A stretch of DNA of 64,000 nucleotides from Akkermansiaceae bacterium (lineage in GTDB: Bacteria > Verrucomicrobiota > Verrucomicrobiia > Verrucomicrobiales > Akkermansiaceae), in assembly GCA_026421245.1 (NCBI GenBank), contig JAPKDJ010000001.1:1-64000 (forward strand), written 5' to 3'. Every line of letters starts with the position of its first letter. Position 1 is the stretch's first letter. Under the pieces are notes generated by a model. It worked only from the letters and a program-made list of their open reading frames with translations. It did no database searches and had not been told where the DNA came from. Shown here in pieces: positions 24,527 through 30,586 of this stretch. The translations under genes were made by a program, and so were the position numbers.

Positions 24527-26953
24527 ATGGGCGATCTACGACTCAAACTCCAACGGGGGCTTCTCTCGGGGCTTCTCGTGTGCGGGGCTCCTGCTCTCGC
24601 GCAAACTTCTCTTTCCAACGAAGCTGCAATACGCTCGGCGGATGCGCGGGATGCATATTCCTTAATCGAAGCCGGTGATTTGGCCTATCTTGAGCAGAAT
24701 TTCAAGGTAGCACTTTCGAAGTATGCCGAGGCTCTTTCGAAACTGCCGGAAGGGGCAAAGTCGATCATGGGGCTTCGCGCTTCAGCGTTGCAGAGGTTTA
24801 CCCAGACATCGTTTGCCCAAGCCCAGCACTTGATGCGAAGGGGGGATGCCAAGGGTGTGAAGGCGCTTTTGGACGAAGTGGAGACGGTTGATCCTGCGAA
24901 TCCCCAATTGAAAGTTTATCGGGCGAAGATGGATGATCCAATCAGGAACAACCCTGCGCTGACTTCGAAGCACTCCGAAAATATCGACCGAGTGCGCCGT
25001 CTCCTATACGAGGCGGAGGGTTATTATGATTTGGGAAAATTCGATCGAGCCTACTTGACCTACGAGGACATTCTCCGAATTGACAAGCACAACAAGGCCG
25101 CTCGCCGGGGAATGGAGCGGTCAAATGCGGCGATTTCGGATTACTCGACGTCGGCACGGGACCAGGCTCGGGCGGAGGCCTTTCAGGATGTGGACGAGGA
25201 GTGGGAGCAAAAGGTATACAAGGAGGAAGATCGTCCAATTGTAGGGGGAGGGGATTTGATCATCACCGGTTCCGGGATGGATTTGTTGACGAAAATGAAT
25301 ACCATCATGGTTCCCGAGTTGATCCTTAATGGTGCGACTCTGGATGAAGCTGTTGATTTTCTCCGCGTGGCAGCAGTGCAGGGGGATGAGGCAACTCTGG
25401 ATGAAAATGAAAAGGGGGTGCCCTTTGTTATTCAATTGGGCGACGAAAACCACCCTGCGGTGAAGAAAATCCGGGGCGCCCGCATCAGCTTAAAGCTCCG
25501 GAATGTGCCACTGTCGGAAGCGGTTCGTTTGGTGACCGAGGCCTCGGGAACGACTTTCCGGGTGGATGAATTTGCAGTTGTCCTTAATGCGGCTGGCTTT
25601 TCGGACCCGGCATTGATTCGAAGAGACTTCCGGGTGCCTCCGAATTTTCTAACCGGGGTGGCAAATACCAAGGTGGCCGGTGACCCCGATCCCTTTGCGG
25701 ATAAAGCGGCCGAGGGAGGATTGATTGCCAAAACTTTAACGGCAAGGGAGAAGCTGCAGACCTACGATGTGAGCTTTCCGGATGGGGCCAGCGCAACCTA
25801 CAATCCTTCGAGCAATATTTTGACGGTGCGAAATACGGTTGCCACTATGCGCCTTATTGAAGCGATTGTAGAAGATATCGTCAAGATGGAGCCTGTTGTG
25901 GTGACTATCCGGACGACGCTCGTGGACATCAGTCAAGTGAATCTCGAGGAGCTGGGATTTGATATGATGCTTGGCGAATTTAATGTTGGCGAATTTGGAT
26001 TTTTGTCCGGTGGATCAACGGGCGTTGGAACTGCGATTAACGATATGATTCCTGGGAATCCGGTCACTTCCGGGAACCGGAGCGGAGATCTCTCTGGAAC
26101 AACGGACGGCCTCGACGCGCTTTTGGCAAGGAAATCACCTCCGACAGCCTCCGGTACGCTGAGTAGCGACGGGAATGGGAACAACGAGAACAGCATTAAT
26201 TTACCTGCAGGAACCAACGGCGGAGCTTCAAGAGCGAGTGGAATTATCAGCTTGCGGGGCCTCATCGATGGGACGGCTCACGAGATTTTGATGAGGGGGT
26301 TGTCCCAGAAGAAGGGCTCCGATATTATGGCCCGTCCGGAAGTGGTGACTCGTTCCGGCGAGAATGCTTCGATCCACTCGATCATCGAGTTTCCCTATCC
26401 CGAGGATTATGAACCACCCGAGATTCCCAACGCGGTGGGAGGAAACGACGGGATCGTGACTCCTGCCACGCCGACAAACTTTACGGTGGCGAATCTTGGC
26501 GTGTCTTTGGAGGTTCTCCCACAAGTCGGACCGGACCGCCGAATCATAGAGGTTGCTTTAAATCCGGTGATTCGGGATTTTGAGGGCTTTGTGAACTATG
26601 GAACGCCGATCGTAGGATCAACTAACACGACAACGGTGAATCTGGTGGACAACACCGCCGCGACCGACAGCGTCTTTGGGGAAATTACCTCCAATGCGAT
26701 TTTAAAACCGATCTTCCGTACCATCAGAGGAAAGACCAGTTTGCGGGTCCTCGATGGACAAACGATTGTTATGGGTGGCCTGGTTACAGAGAGGCGGAGA
26801 CAGATCAGCGACAAGGTGCCAATTTTGGGAGATCTTCCGTTTGTGGGACGAATTTTCCGTAACGATGGAATTTCAGTTGAAAAGCGTTCGGTACTGATAT
26901 TTGTGAATGTCGAGTTAACCGACCCCGCAGGTAATCCTTATCGCGACCGTTAA
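24527..26953 (+). CDS. Amuc_1098-family secretin (outer-membrane channel)
   Basis: An 808-residue exported protein with a signal peptide (about 1-26). Residues 35-230 are TPR-like helices containing the family pattern 'NPALTSKHSENIDRVRRLLY' and 'YYDLGKFDRAYLTYEDILR'. A secretin N-domain spans about 260-440. The pore-forming secretin domain covers about 460-800, with a Gly/Ser/Asn-rich insert near 500-570 and the closing signature 'VLDGQTIVMGGLVTERRRQI' then 'DKVPILGDLPFVGRIFR'. Amuc_1098 proteins in Akkermansia lie in a type IV pilus locus with PilMNO-like genes; none are next to this one. The next gene starts on its stop codon (TAATG). Confidence 0.9.
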   Translation: MGDLRLKLQRGLLSGLLVCGAPALAQTSLSNEAAIRSADARDAYSLIEAGDLAYLEQNFKVALSKYAEALSKLPEGAKSIMGLRASALQRFTQTSFAQAQHLMRRGDAKGVKALLDEVETVDPANPQLKVYRAKMDDPIRNNPALTSKHSENIDRVRRLLYEAEGYYDLGKFDRAYLTYEDILRIDKHNKAARRGMERSNAAISDYSTSARDQARAEAFQDVDEEWEQKVYKEEDRPIVGGGDLIITGSGMDLLTKMNTIMVPELILNGATLDEAVDFLRVAAVQGDEATLDENEKGVPFVIQLGDENHPAVKKIRGARISLKLRNVPLSEAVRLVTEASGTTFRVDEFAVVLNAAGFSDPALIRRDFRVPPNFLTGVANTKVAGDPDPFADKAAEGGLIAKTLTAREKLQTYDVSFPDGASATYNPSSNILTVRNTVATMRLIEAIVEDIVKMEPVVVTIRTTLVDISQVNLEELGFDMMLGEFNVGEFGFLSGGSTGVGTAINDMIPGNPVTSGNRSGDLSGTTDGLDALLARKSPPTASGTLSSDGNGNNENSINLPAGTNGGASRASGIISLRGLIDGTAHEILMRGLSQKKGSDIMARPEVVTRSGENASIHSIIEFPYPEDYEPPEIPNAVGGNDGIVTPATPTNFTVANLGVSLEVLPQVGPDRRIIEVALNPVIRDFEGFVNYGTPIVGSTNTTTVNLVDNTAATDSVFGEITSNAILKPIFRTIRGKTSLRVLDGQTIVMGGLVTERRRQISDKVPILGDLPFVGRIFRNDGISVEKRSVLIFVNVELTDPAGNPYRDR

Positions 26954-28578
26954 TGAGTCAAAATATCCCCCCCCGCTCGCTTCCACCGGAGGACGTTCAA
27001 GATTCAGACGAATCCTCTTCTCAAAAGGATCAGTATAGTCTGGACGAAATAATGAAGGCGCTCCGAGAAAAGGAGCGCGAAAAAGATGAACAAGGGGAGG
27101 TCGTGACTCGCTTAGACGGTTCGATCGCCCGGAAGGTGAAACGTCGGAAACGACGTTCGGGGCAGCAGGAGAAAGCAACACCGGAAAAAGAAAAGAAACG
27201 GGTTTTGTTGAAGATCATCATCGCTGCTGTTCTCCTACTGATGTTGGCGTTGACCGCGCTTTTTTTGATGCTGAATCAGAACAGCAAAAGTTATCGCAAA
27301 AAGCTGGAAATCTCTGCTGCGGAATGGACCGGGGCTGAAGTAGAGTTGAGTGGCTTCAAGAGGCTTCCCTTGTCTGCCAAAATAAACAGAGCGAAATTCA
27401 GTTGGCCGGAAAGCTACTATCTGAGGGAGTTTGAGTTAAAGAACCTGTCGGGAGATGTCAGCTTCCTCACTTTTCTGGGAGCAAGGCCCAGTGGTTTGCA
27501 GCTTGGCGGGACGGTCGGAGAGATGGTGGTAAGAATGCCCGACTCACGGGGAAACGAACTGGAATCAATTGAGGAATCCGAGTTTCCGTTTCTATTTGAA
27601 CAGTATTACTGTCAGGCTCTTGATGTTAAATTCGGCGAGGGCGGGACCGTTGGGCTAAAAGGGGCAAGTGCGAGTCTGAGGCACATTAGCAACGAAGGTT
27701 TTCAAGTTACGATTGATCAGGGAACGTTTCAGTTTGCAGGTTGGCAGGATTTCCCAATCTCGAGTGGACTACTGAGGTTCAAAAATAACACGATCGATCT
27801 AAAGTCATTTTCTCTGGAACCTCCCGATGATGATGATGTGATGCTGAGTTCGAATTTGAAGATTAGCGGAGAAATCCCGCTGATTTCGGGTAAGCAAGTG
27901 CAATTGGATGCAAGCACAGGGAATTTTTCCTTTAGTGGGCTGATCGGTAAAAAGTTGGCACGCCTTTTTAGTGGATCATTGATTGAGTCTAATGGTGCCA
28001 TCATTTTCACTGTTGGAGAGAGTCAAGTTGACGAAATCGTCATGAATTTTACGGCGGATCGTCTCAAGATGGAGAGTTTTCCGTTCCTCTCGAATTTGGT
28101 TGAACTCTTTCCAGATCGAAATTTAGAGGAACTTGAATTCAACAAAGGATTGGTTGATTCAGCCATCAAGGGAGTTTTGCGGGTTCGGCCGGAAGGGGTG
28201 GCGATCGAGAATCTTGAGATGATGGCTCAAAAGGGGAACATTCGAATCAAGGGAGGAGTTGTGGTAGCTGATTCGGGAGAGATTCGAGGCAAGATTGCCA
28301 TGTCCCTCAATCGTGTTTTTGTCACGAATCGCCCGAATCTGGCTAATAACCCGAAATTAGAGGGAAGTAAGGAAAGTGGTTATGTGAATGTGAATTTCAG
28401 GCTGAAGGGAACGATTGACAAACCCGATGACACTTTCCGCACGGAGGTTGGAATGGAGGCAGACCTTCCCGGCGTAGGGCGTTCTTTTGTCGACGATATA
28501 GATGATGATCTTTGGGGGCCTCTCCAGAAAACCGAACCGGACCTCGCTCCCGATATTCTCCGTGAACAGGAAGAGTGA
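26953..28578 (+). CDS. Single-pass membrane protein with AsmA-like periplasmic region
   Basis: 541 residues. The first 80 residues are highly charged and cytoplasmic, with a coiled stretch 'SLDEIMKALREKEREKDE' and a basic block 'RKVKRRKRRSG'. One membrane helix follows at about 86-108. The rest is periplasmic beta-rich sequence with repeated strand-turn units and a late segment 'VRPEGVAIENLEMMAQKGNI' that resembles AsmA/DUF3971 tails. No confident family name can be given. Its start overlaps the secretin stop by one base, so the two are translationally coupled and probably act together across the periplasm. Confidence 0.75.
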   Translation: MSQNIPPRSLPPEDVQDSDESSSQKDQYSLDEIMKALREKEREKDEQGEVVTRLDGSIARKVKRRKRRSGQQEKATPEKEKKRVLLKIIIAAVLLLMLALTALFLMLNQNSKSYRKKLEISAAEWTGAEVELSGFKRLPLSAKINRAKFSWPESYYLREFELKNLSGDVSFLTFLGARPSGLQLGGTVGEMVVRMPDSRGNELESIEESEFPFLFEQYYCQALDVKFGEGGTVGLKGASASLRHISNEGFQVTIDQGTFQFAGWQDFPISSGLLRFKNNTIDLKSFSLEPPDDDDVMLSSNLKISGEIPLISGKQVQLDASTGNFSFSGLIGKKLARLFSGSLIESNGAIIFTVGESQVDEIVMNFTADRLKMESFPFLSNLVELFPDRNLEELEFNKGLVDSAIKGVLRVRPEGVAIENLEMMAQKGNIRIKGGVVVADSGEIRGKIAMSLNRVFVTNRPNLANNPKLEGSKESGYVNVNFRLKGTIDKPDDTFRTEVGMEADLPGVGRSFVDDIDDDLWGPLQKTEPDLAPDILREQEE

Positions 28579-28669
28579 GACAGGGCGGTTTTCCCGACTC
28601 CCTTCGCTTGTCCATCGGTGTTGCTGACTCTAGTCTCTTATTGGAAAACATCTTTACCCTCACAGATTT

Positions 28670-30586
28670 ATGCCAAACCCCTTTGGAACTGCATTCGAAT
28701 CCTTGGAAAGCCCTGCCGGTCCCATTGTTGAGGCCGTCCACGAAGCTCCTTATCGCCGATTGAGTGAACTCATTGATTCTGGAGAAGGGCAGCTCATTTC
28801 CTTGAGAGCTCCCCGCGCCGGATACGGAAAGACGATGCTTTTGTCCCGTCTTCGTGAGAAGAAAAAGGGAGTGATGATGTTTGTTCCGATTCATCTTTCC
28901 GACGGTCGCAGGCTGGAGGGGGAAGGGATACTTGAGGAACTCCTGACACAGCTTACCGAGACCGTATCCGGAGCAGCGGGCCTGACGCGCTTGGATCTGC
29001 ACGTCAGACGGCTCTTTGCCCATGGGTTACTTCCATTGGTGTATTCAGGAGAAGTCCCTTCGCAAGATAAGGATGGAGCGTTGAGTAGTCTGCGCGAGCG
29101 ACCTACCGAAGCCTTTGATTTTCATCACGAAGGTGCGGCAATTGCGCAGTGGACAAAGAACCAGTTTGAGATTCTTTCACCACGCCTTTCTTCGGTGTTG
29201 AGCAAGTCCAGCGGGGCCAGTAGCCGCGATACCTCTTATTGGATTGAACTCTTTTTTAACTACGCCACCCGACCCCCCAACGAGCTAAACCGAACTAGCG
29301 AATTGATGGAAACCGTCTTTGGACGTGAGAGCCGGTTCCGATCGGGAACCGGATATTTGGACAGATTGGGTTCATTTTTGAATCTGATCACATTGGTTGA
29401 ACCGGTGGTGTTACTGCTGGACGAAGTGGACGGGCTCTCAAGTGATAGCGACGCAGCTCTTCGGGCCACAAGTTGTTTGGTTTCGTTATGGGAGTCAGCG
29501 CCTCGAACAAGCGTTGTTCTTTCGGTGAATGATGACGTTTGGCAGTCGGCATTTGCTCCAAGGCTCCCGCTTGGATTACAAGATAGGCTCGAAGATGTCG
29601 TGATTCGTCTGGATGAATTAACTCAAGAGGAAGCTAGATTGCTCGTCACGGTTCGCTCCGGGGACGAGGCCGAGAAAGTTTTGACTCAAATAGACTTTAA
29701 TTCCGGGGGGCTTTATCCAAGAGGAGTGTTAAAGGCGGCCCGCGAAGCCTGGGAGAGGTGGGACAAGGTGGGGAAGGAAACGGACCATACGACTCCCGAA
29801 GTAGTTCAAGCCTCTCAGCTTGAAATGGGTTCTCCGGGAAAGGCCGACAATCAGGAAGTGGTCGCAGATCCATTGATCAAGCTGGATTCCTTTGGATTCA
29901 CCGAGCCTCTCAGGCCGGCTTATCCTCCGCAAGTGGTGCGCCGCGCCGCGCTTCCAAGAAAATTCAACGTGCAAAGGATCCGTCAGTCTCCCTCAGCCAT
30001 TGTTGATTTCGCTTCTCCTGCCGCGATCGTTCCTCCGGCAGTGGTTGAATTTAACCCTGATCCCGCCCCCACTCCGGAAGCTCCAACTCCTCCCGAATTG
30101 GCAAACCCTTTTCAGGTGGCGACACCTCTTCCCATGCAGTCACAACCGGTTTTACCGCCGGCGCGACCGTTTGAGTCCTCTCCTTTCGAACCTTCAGGGC
30201 CGCTGATGGCGCCGGAGATTTCTCCATCCCAGATGGAATCTCCGATACCGCCTCAAACGGAATCAGAAGACCAACGTAGCCTCCACTCATCTCCATCAAA
30301 TTCACCATTCGGTCTAGCTCCTGCTCAACCATCTGTTCAGGAAGATCCTGCTCAGATGCAGTCGTTTTCCCCTGTTCAAACATTTGCAGCCCCCCCGGAC
30401 TTTCCCGCAGCGCCCCCGGAGCAGGCAACCCCACCTCCGATGGGAAACCAACCTGCTCCGATGGGGAGTCCGTTCGAAGCAGCATCATCTGCGGCGGCGA
30501 TTCCACTCGAGCCTGAAGTGCCCAAGGCCGATACTGATGAAATCGACGAATTACTTCGGCAGTTCCGGGAGCATCGGGATTCTTAA
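28670..30586 (+). CDS. AAA/STAND-type ATPase with long Pro-rich disordered tail
   Basis: 638 residues. The first 370 form a P-loop ATPase: Walker A is 'RAPRAGYGKTM' (about 46-56), a variant in which the usual first glycine is replaced, and Walker B is 'VVLLLDEVDGL'. 'TSVVLSVNDDVWQSA' looks like sensor 1. The remaining 270 residues are Pro, Gln and Ala rich with short NPF / SPF-like segments and no fold, ending in an acidic helix 'DTDEIDELLRQFREHRDS'. It is not a PilB/PilT or GspE ATPase. It lies 91 bases after the AsmA-like gene and may power or regulate the envelope module. It converges on lipB. Confidence 0.75.
   Translation: MPNPFGTAFESLESPAGPIVEAVHEAPYRRLSELIDSGEGQLISLRAPRAGYGKTMLLSRLREKKKGVMMFVPIHLSDGRRLEGEGILEELLTQLTETVSGAAGLTRLDLHVRRLFAHGLLPLVYSGEVPSQDKDGALSSLRERPTEAFDFHHEGAAIAQWTKNQFEILSPRLSSVLSKSSGASSRDTSYWIELFFNYATRPPNELNRTSELMETVFGRESRFRSGTGYLDRLGSFLNLITLVEPVVLLLDEVDGLSSDSDAALRATSCLVSLWESAPRTSVVLSVNDDVWQSAFAPRLPLGLQDRLEDVVIRLDELTQEEARLLVTVRSGDEAEKVLTQIDFNSGGLYPRGVLKAAREAWERWDKVGKETDHTTPEVVQASQLEMGSPGKADNQEVVADPLIKLDSFGFTEPLRPAYPPQVVRRAALPRKFNVQRIRQSPSAIVDFASPAAIVPPAVVEFNPDPAPTPEAPTPPELANPFQVATPLPMQSQPVLPPARPFESSPFEPSGPLMAPEISPSQMESPIPPQTESEDQRSLHSSPSNSPFGLAPAQPSVQEDPAQMQSFSPVQTFAAPPDFPAAPPEQATPPPMGNQPAPMGSPFEAASSAAAIPLEPEVPKADTDEIDELLRQFREHRDS

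Follow-up and report, generated by a model that had tools for sequence, protein, structure and literature searches.

The secretin locus and its genes

The window, that is, the whole 64,000-nt stretch of DNA analysed, lies on contig C68 of a 4.3-Mb, 93%-complete assembly. Its + strand carries a gene for a secretin (24527-26953), one for an AsmA-like protein (26953-28578), and one for an AAA+ ATPase (28670-30586). The original prediction had placed all three open reading frames exactly, in coordinates and in strand, and the genes are intact. The AsmA-like start codon overlaps the secretin stop codon by one base (TAATG), and a 91-nt gap separates the AsmA-like stop from the ATPase start. Promoter and terminator signals sought between the genes gave matches no better than those in shuffled sequence, with no convincing terminator before the ATPase. 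Against the closest relative, which is 82-86% identical outside the ATPase tail, dN/dS was 0.09 for the secretin, 0.08 for the AsmA-like protein, 0.06 for the ATPase core, and 0.24 for the ATPase tail; given the low values in secretin, AsmA-like protein, and ATPase, these are working genes under purifying selection.

The 808-aa secretin scores 772.3 bits against the NCBIfam model NF042912, “Amuc_1098 family type IV pilus outer membrane protein” (cut-off 750), and 95 bits against Pfam Secretin, which bears out its earlier assignment to the Amuc_1098 type. It passes neither the GspD nor the PilQ equivalog cut-off (GspD model, 78.4 bits vs 351). Residues 1-26 (24527-24604) likely form a signal peptide, judged by eye from a basic start, a hydrophobic core, and the ending ...GAPALAQ, and the Secretin domain proper (PF00263) covers residues 592-797 (26300-26917). 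This secretin is paralogous to the pilus secretin Amuc_1098, from which it has diverged. Several open reading frames of about 1060-2970 codons that have no secretin domain also match the N-terminal half of the Amuc_1098 model (G043:C62:25671-26708, G009:C24:20250-21242, G032:C4:138409-139287, G053:C57:32676-33473, and others); they could encode large envelope proteins with this half in common.

The AsmA-like protein (541 aa) passes no Pfam AsmA-family cut-off; it is recognized by its predicted fold and by its position after the secretin. The AlphaFold2 model (mean pLDDT 76.8) comprises a cytosolic helix with a small hairpin (within 26953-27180), one long predicted membrane-spanning helix with a basic cytosolic side (residues 77-109; 27181-27279), a further helix, and approximately 370 residues of groove-like beta sheet of the AsmA/TamB type, predicted to be periplasmic (residues ~128-500; 27334-28452). 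The best two Foldseek matches are both TamB (E 1.6e-4 and 3.2e-4). A second aligner, VIA, placed LPD-3, Vps13 (Z 7.4), TamB (Z 6.8), and Atg2 in its top rows, with Z scores of 6-8, all <8 and tied with porins. LPD-3, Vps13, TamB, and Atg2 are all groove or bridge proteins. Homologues of the window protein give weak Pfam matches to YhdP, AsmA, and DUF748. The model and the fold matches thus support an AsmA-like fold, a beta-groove (“beta-taco”) with a membrane helix, and on these grounds the original AsmA-like call holds.

Sequence conservation in this protein is strongest at the cytosolic N-terminus, where alignment A1 displays a YSLDEMMKALR helix followed by the basic motif GEVVTRxDGxxARKVKRRxRRS. 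The motif recurs as REVVVRPDGxKxIRVxKRRR in the Akkermansia muciniphila protein, and its retention together with the conserved N-terminus suggests a docking partner in the cytosol. A second AsmA-like paralogue in the window's genome (G000:C126:19431-20762, L178; 541 aa) lacks the cytosolic motif and lies away from any secretin; it is also present in Akkermansia (L177).

The ATPase (638 aa) is modelled as a well-predicted AAA+ core (residues ~1-372; 28670-29785; pLDDT mostly >90), about 245 disordered Pro/Gln-rich residues that evolve fast (29786-30523; pLDDT <50), and a short conserved C-terminal helix (DEIDELLRQFREHRD, helix 620-637; 30527-30580). The fold of the core is closest to Cdc6/ORC and TnsC (Z 13-15). 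In sequence, the window protein has weak matches to AAA_16 and AAA_22, the latter at 20.4 bits and so below the cut-off of 27, with homologues reaching E 1.4e-6; a match to the NACHT/STAND domain is weak and likewise under cut-off (15.2 bits). The Walker A motif PRAGYGKT (28811-28834) keeps its P, A-G, and G-K in 18 homologues, and its lysine, the Walker B aspartate, and an asparagine and an arginine position are invariant in alignment A2. For a membrane helix or a peptidoglycan-binding domain, there was neither a Pfam match nor a long hydrophobic helix in the model. A reading of the ATPase as part of a defence system was set aside, as PADLOC returned no match for it.

The C-terminal helix of the ATPase (DEIDELLRQFREHRD, DEIDELLRQFRE) is similar to the AsmA-like protein's N-terminal helix (SLDEIMKALREKER, SLDEIMKALRE; 27040-27090), possibly reflecting the same binding partner, or chance. 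When the cytosolic AsmA-like motif and the ATPase helix were sought in other proteins from stretches of the window's own genome, only these two proteins were found.

Conservation of the gene pair and its optional third gene

Among 58 related genomes, the secretin family was found in all 58 and the AsmA-like protein in 36, including 24 of the 26 relatives within the genus. Wherever the contig allows it to be seen, open reading frame maps place the AsmA-like gene directly 3' of the secretin, within the genus as well as in sister genera and further families of the order. Homologues found with the AsmA-like profile in other orders of the class were never beside a secretin.

A scan of named genomes with the alignment of the window-type secretin (A3) yielded 80 loci, mostly from Akkermansiaceae and Verrucomicrobiaceae (Luteolibacter, Haloferula, Roseibacillus, Rubritalea, Prosthecobacter, and many metagenome assemblies). 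In 63 of these, the secretin is followed at +1 by the AsmA-like gene in the same orientation; genes of the Amuc_1099-1102 type stand beside the secretin in 12, and no locus out of 80 has both. Of the remaining five, three run into a contig end close to the secretin, one (L275) has no recognized partner, and in one (L228) the secretin was missed by the ORF picker. The ratio of 63:12 is biased because the queries were AsmA-paired secretins, a choice that does not account for the absence of mixed loci. On a tree of the secretins from named loci, the canonical and the AsmA-paired contexts are separated by a single change with a support of 100. A wider tree of six families, in which deep branches are uncertain and some joins are long-branch, also clusters the contexts strongly (6 changes vs 25 in shuffles).

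The pair persists amid varying flanks (RibF, topoisomerase IV, NADH dehydrogenase-type genes, LipB), so its linkage is not due to a frozen neighbourhood. These neighbours are mostly housekeeping genes, and the only functional clues among them are the DUF374 gene of Akkermansia and, in a few lineages, a MoxR-type gene set. At the latter loci (L234, L240, L241, L245, and L112 in G034), the pair is followed by a secreted-like protein of ~670 aa and a MoxR-type AAA+ gene at the position of the window's ATPase, and in L112 a DUF58-like gene comes after the MoxR-type gene. In one congener, the secretin-AsmA-ATPase cluster is split into several reading frames (L109, G014:C4:19000-38000), through decay or poor assembly.

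The ATPase behaves differently from the pair. It occurs in 17 of the 26 genus relatives, next to the pair in 16 of them (the contig of the 17th ends inside the AsmA-like gene), and in 20 of the 63 named pair loci, always in third place. The link to the other two genes that the original prediction had drawn from position is partly supported: the ATPase is absent from other congeners and, in one sister genus (G032), lies away from the pair, which makes it an accessory rather than a defining component. In other families, its more distant homologues occur on their own, with no shared neighbour found and with different C-termini. A single three-part machine as a fixed unit was rejected, since the ATPase is missing from 43 of the 63 loci and its presence changes at least five times on the secretin tree. 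The conserved core comprises two genes, not three. The pairing of secretin and AsmA-like protein first noticed in the window is conserved and mostly tightly spaced across the order, and it is distinct from the pilus operon. No description of it was found in the open-access papers searched.

A second secretin, the pilus operon, and motors encoded elsewhere

A Pfam search found exactly two secretins in the window's genome. The other one, on contig C110, scores higher against the Amuc_1098 model than the window copy (1055 bits) and heads a canonical pilus operon, in which it is followed by Amuc_1099-, 1100-, 1101 (PilM)-, and 1102-like genes. None of the Amuc_1099-1102 genes is present beside the window secretin. 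The earlier observation that the locus has no PilMNO, GspE, or pseudopilin gene holds for the flanks examined, in which none was seen.

Motor and platform genes are nonetheless encoded in the same genome, all in trans. On contig C56, two GspE genes in tandem are accompanied by GspF and a prepilin-like gene; C50 carries a GspE-GspF-ABC set plus a divergent PilT pair, and C13 another PilT pair, amounting to three GspE, four PilT, and GspF. The tandem arrangement of two GspE-type ATPase genes (L192, G000:C56; L281 in A. muciniphila) is conserved across the family. In two relatives, such genes adjoin the pair itself: GspE-GspF-ABC lies upstream of the secretin-AsmA-ATPase trio in G011, the only relative in which GspE/GspF do so, and PilT-PilT lies upstream of the secretin-AsmA pair in G034. 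In G006 and G010 the pair is present but a C50-type GspE match is not, and in G009 the opposite holds; all three genomes are incomplete. The lack of PilB or GspE at the locus is consequently no lack in the cell, and the original conclusion that this is neither a type IV pilus nor a type II system is not supported, as it cannot be drawn from the locus alone.

The same two-secretin arrangement extends to Akkermansia. Each of the three closed genomes of genus g3 has exactly two secretins, together with two GspE and two PilT genes. In one of them, G168, the canonical secretin exactly matches both published Amuc_1098 primer sequences (PMC4960237), which identifies the genome as A. muciniphila. In G168 the AsmA-like gene comes after the second secretin (~1,979,146-1,981,671). 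In Akkermansia, 15 nt separate the AsmA-like gene from a DUF374 acyltransferase-like gene downstream of it, and the ATPase was not found beside the Akkermansia pairs. With one GspE set for two secretins, motors may be shared. The tag Amuc_1666, first considered for the A. muciniphila copy, was dropped, as the literature on that tag concerns glycan degradation.

A candidate second export machine

The closest known parallel is the pairing of GspD with GspN in Acinetobacter and with Klebsiella PulN, where a secretin works with a single-helix inner-membrane AsmA-like groove protein (PMC12802150). There, too, the gate and groove genes lie close together. GspN is required by the Acinetobacter baumannii type II secretion system for lipoproteins and not for the soluble effector CpaA (PMC12802150). 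The window AsmA-like protein is predicted to share this build, a single N-terminal membrane helix and an AsmA-like groove. It is unmatched by the GspN models (no match at the locus to PF01203 or TIGR04411), so that identity with GspN was rejected in favour of a variant; nor is there a gsp operon around the window pair, whose secretin is of the Amuc_1098 type. The long conserved cytosolic N-terminus also appears to set it apart, as no counterpart is known to us in GspN. Compared with the Amuc_1098-1102 operon, the window locus has a secretin of the same family with a TPR-bearing N-terminal half, in the same genomes, but the secretin falls in a separate clade and an AsmA-like gene takes the place of Amuc_1099-1102. 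Members of the AsmA/TamB/YhdP family have the beta-groove fold and N-terminal membrane helix predicted here, whereas the window protein is encoded with a secretin and is only 541 aa long. The pair is a variant of the known arrangement of a secretin with an AsmA-like partner, order-wide and distinct from the known pilus operon.

By analogy with GspN of the A. baumannii type II system, we tentatively favour, while stopping short of calling it probable, a reading in which the second secretin and the AsmA-like protein form the gate and, anchored in the inner membrane, the lipid-groove adaptor of a second machine of the Verrucomicrobiales related to type II secretion and type IV pili. The secretin would make up the ring in the outer membrane. 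Anchored through its single helix and presumably in physical contact with the secretin, the AsmA-like protein would shield the acyl chains of lipoproteins or lipids within its periplasmic beta-groove on their way to the gate, as proposed for GspN and GspD, while its cytosolic helix and basic motif would dock to a cytosolic partner. Energy would come from GspE/PilT-type ATPases encoded elsewhere; the second gate is probably a component of a further export machine, with the motor genes at another site. This motor link is supported by the neighbourhoods in G011 and G034 and rests on those two genomes and on gene counts. The AAA+ ATPase with its disordered tail would be an accessory that only some lineages have retained, probably acting in assembly or regulation. 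The lipid transfer raised by the original prediction is plausible and is strengthened by the Acinetobacter work on GspN (PMC12802150). The DUF374 acyltransferase gene beside the Akkermansia pair counts as a lipid link for the GspN-like model.

The AsmA-like protein could instead serve as a scaffold that builds the secretin ring or inserts it, as GspA/GspB (ExeA/ExeB) or a pilotin would, aided by the ATPase where present and with no lipid cargo. Its gene is strictly a one-to-one neighbour of the secretin, the protein is predicted to be an inner-membrane anchor with a conserved cytosolic motif, and the ATPase is of the AAA_22 type, the Pfam class to which ExeA belongs, so that the locus resembles GspA/GspB in having an AAA+ ATPase of a related class and a single-helix periplasmic protein beside a secretin. 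The window ATPase, unlike that of GspA/GspB, is soluble and optional, with a disordered tail and neither membrane helix nor peptidoglycan-binding domain. Given that most pair loci do without it, that the pilus secretin of the same genome forms with no such partner, and that the role needs no groove fold, we regard a scaffold as unlikely. We give a similarly low probability to a second pilus gate, that is, a duplicate of the pilus secretin serving another type IV pilus, with the AsmA-like protein replacing the PilN/PilO-type tether of Amuc_1099/1100. The window secretin does pass the NCBIfam pilus-secretin model, the AsmA-like gene and Amuc_1099-1102 are mutually exclusive, tandem GspE and tandem PilT genes match the two secretins, and a PilT pair lies beside the secretin-AsmA pair in G034; yet no locus examined had a prepilin or PilM gene with the pair, and the predicted fold of the AsmA-like protein is a lipid groove, not a PilN/O-like domain.

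Less probable again is a lipid bridge, in which the pair would move phospholipid or another lipid between the membranes without a type II or type IV motor and the secretin would act as the outer-membrane anchor. AsmA, TamB, and YhdP relatives are phospholipid bridges (literature cited in PMC12802150). The Akkermansia acyltransferase gene would fit this reading too, but a groove of ~370 residues seems short for a full bridge, and other sites of the same genome encode general AsmA-like paralogues, such as the one on C126. Secretins, moreover, are gated protein channels, and we know of none that transfers lipid.

The preferred reading of gate and groove adaptor bears on two families of proteins that were separate subjects until GspN proved to be AsmA-like and to be required for the export of lipoproteins (PMC12802150). 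Across a large part of a bacterial order, the pair joins an AsmA-like groove protein to a secretin, and that secretin is of the pilus type instead of GspD. In its most specific form, which we hold to be doubtful, it would be an order-wide two-gene export module that uses a pilus-type secretin and a borrowed type IV pilus motor to carry acylated cargo, either surface lipoproteins or lipid. If true, this would be the first route of lipoprotein export that is linked to a secretin but not of the gsp operon type, and it would be present in A. muciniphila. The pair gives the second secretin of this cultured gut species a distinct genetic partner, and the cargo of the second gate and its feeding by a lipid groove are directly testable there by gene removal.
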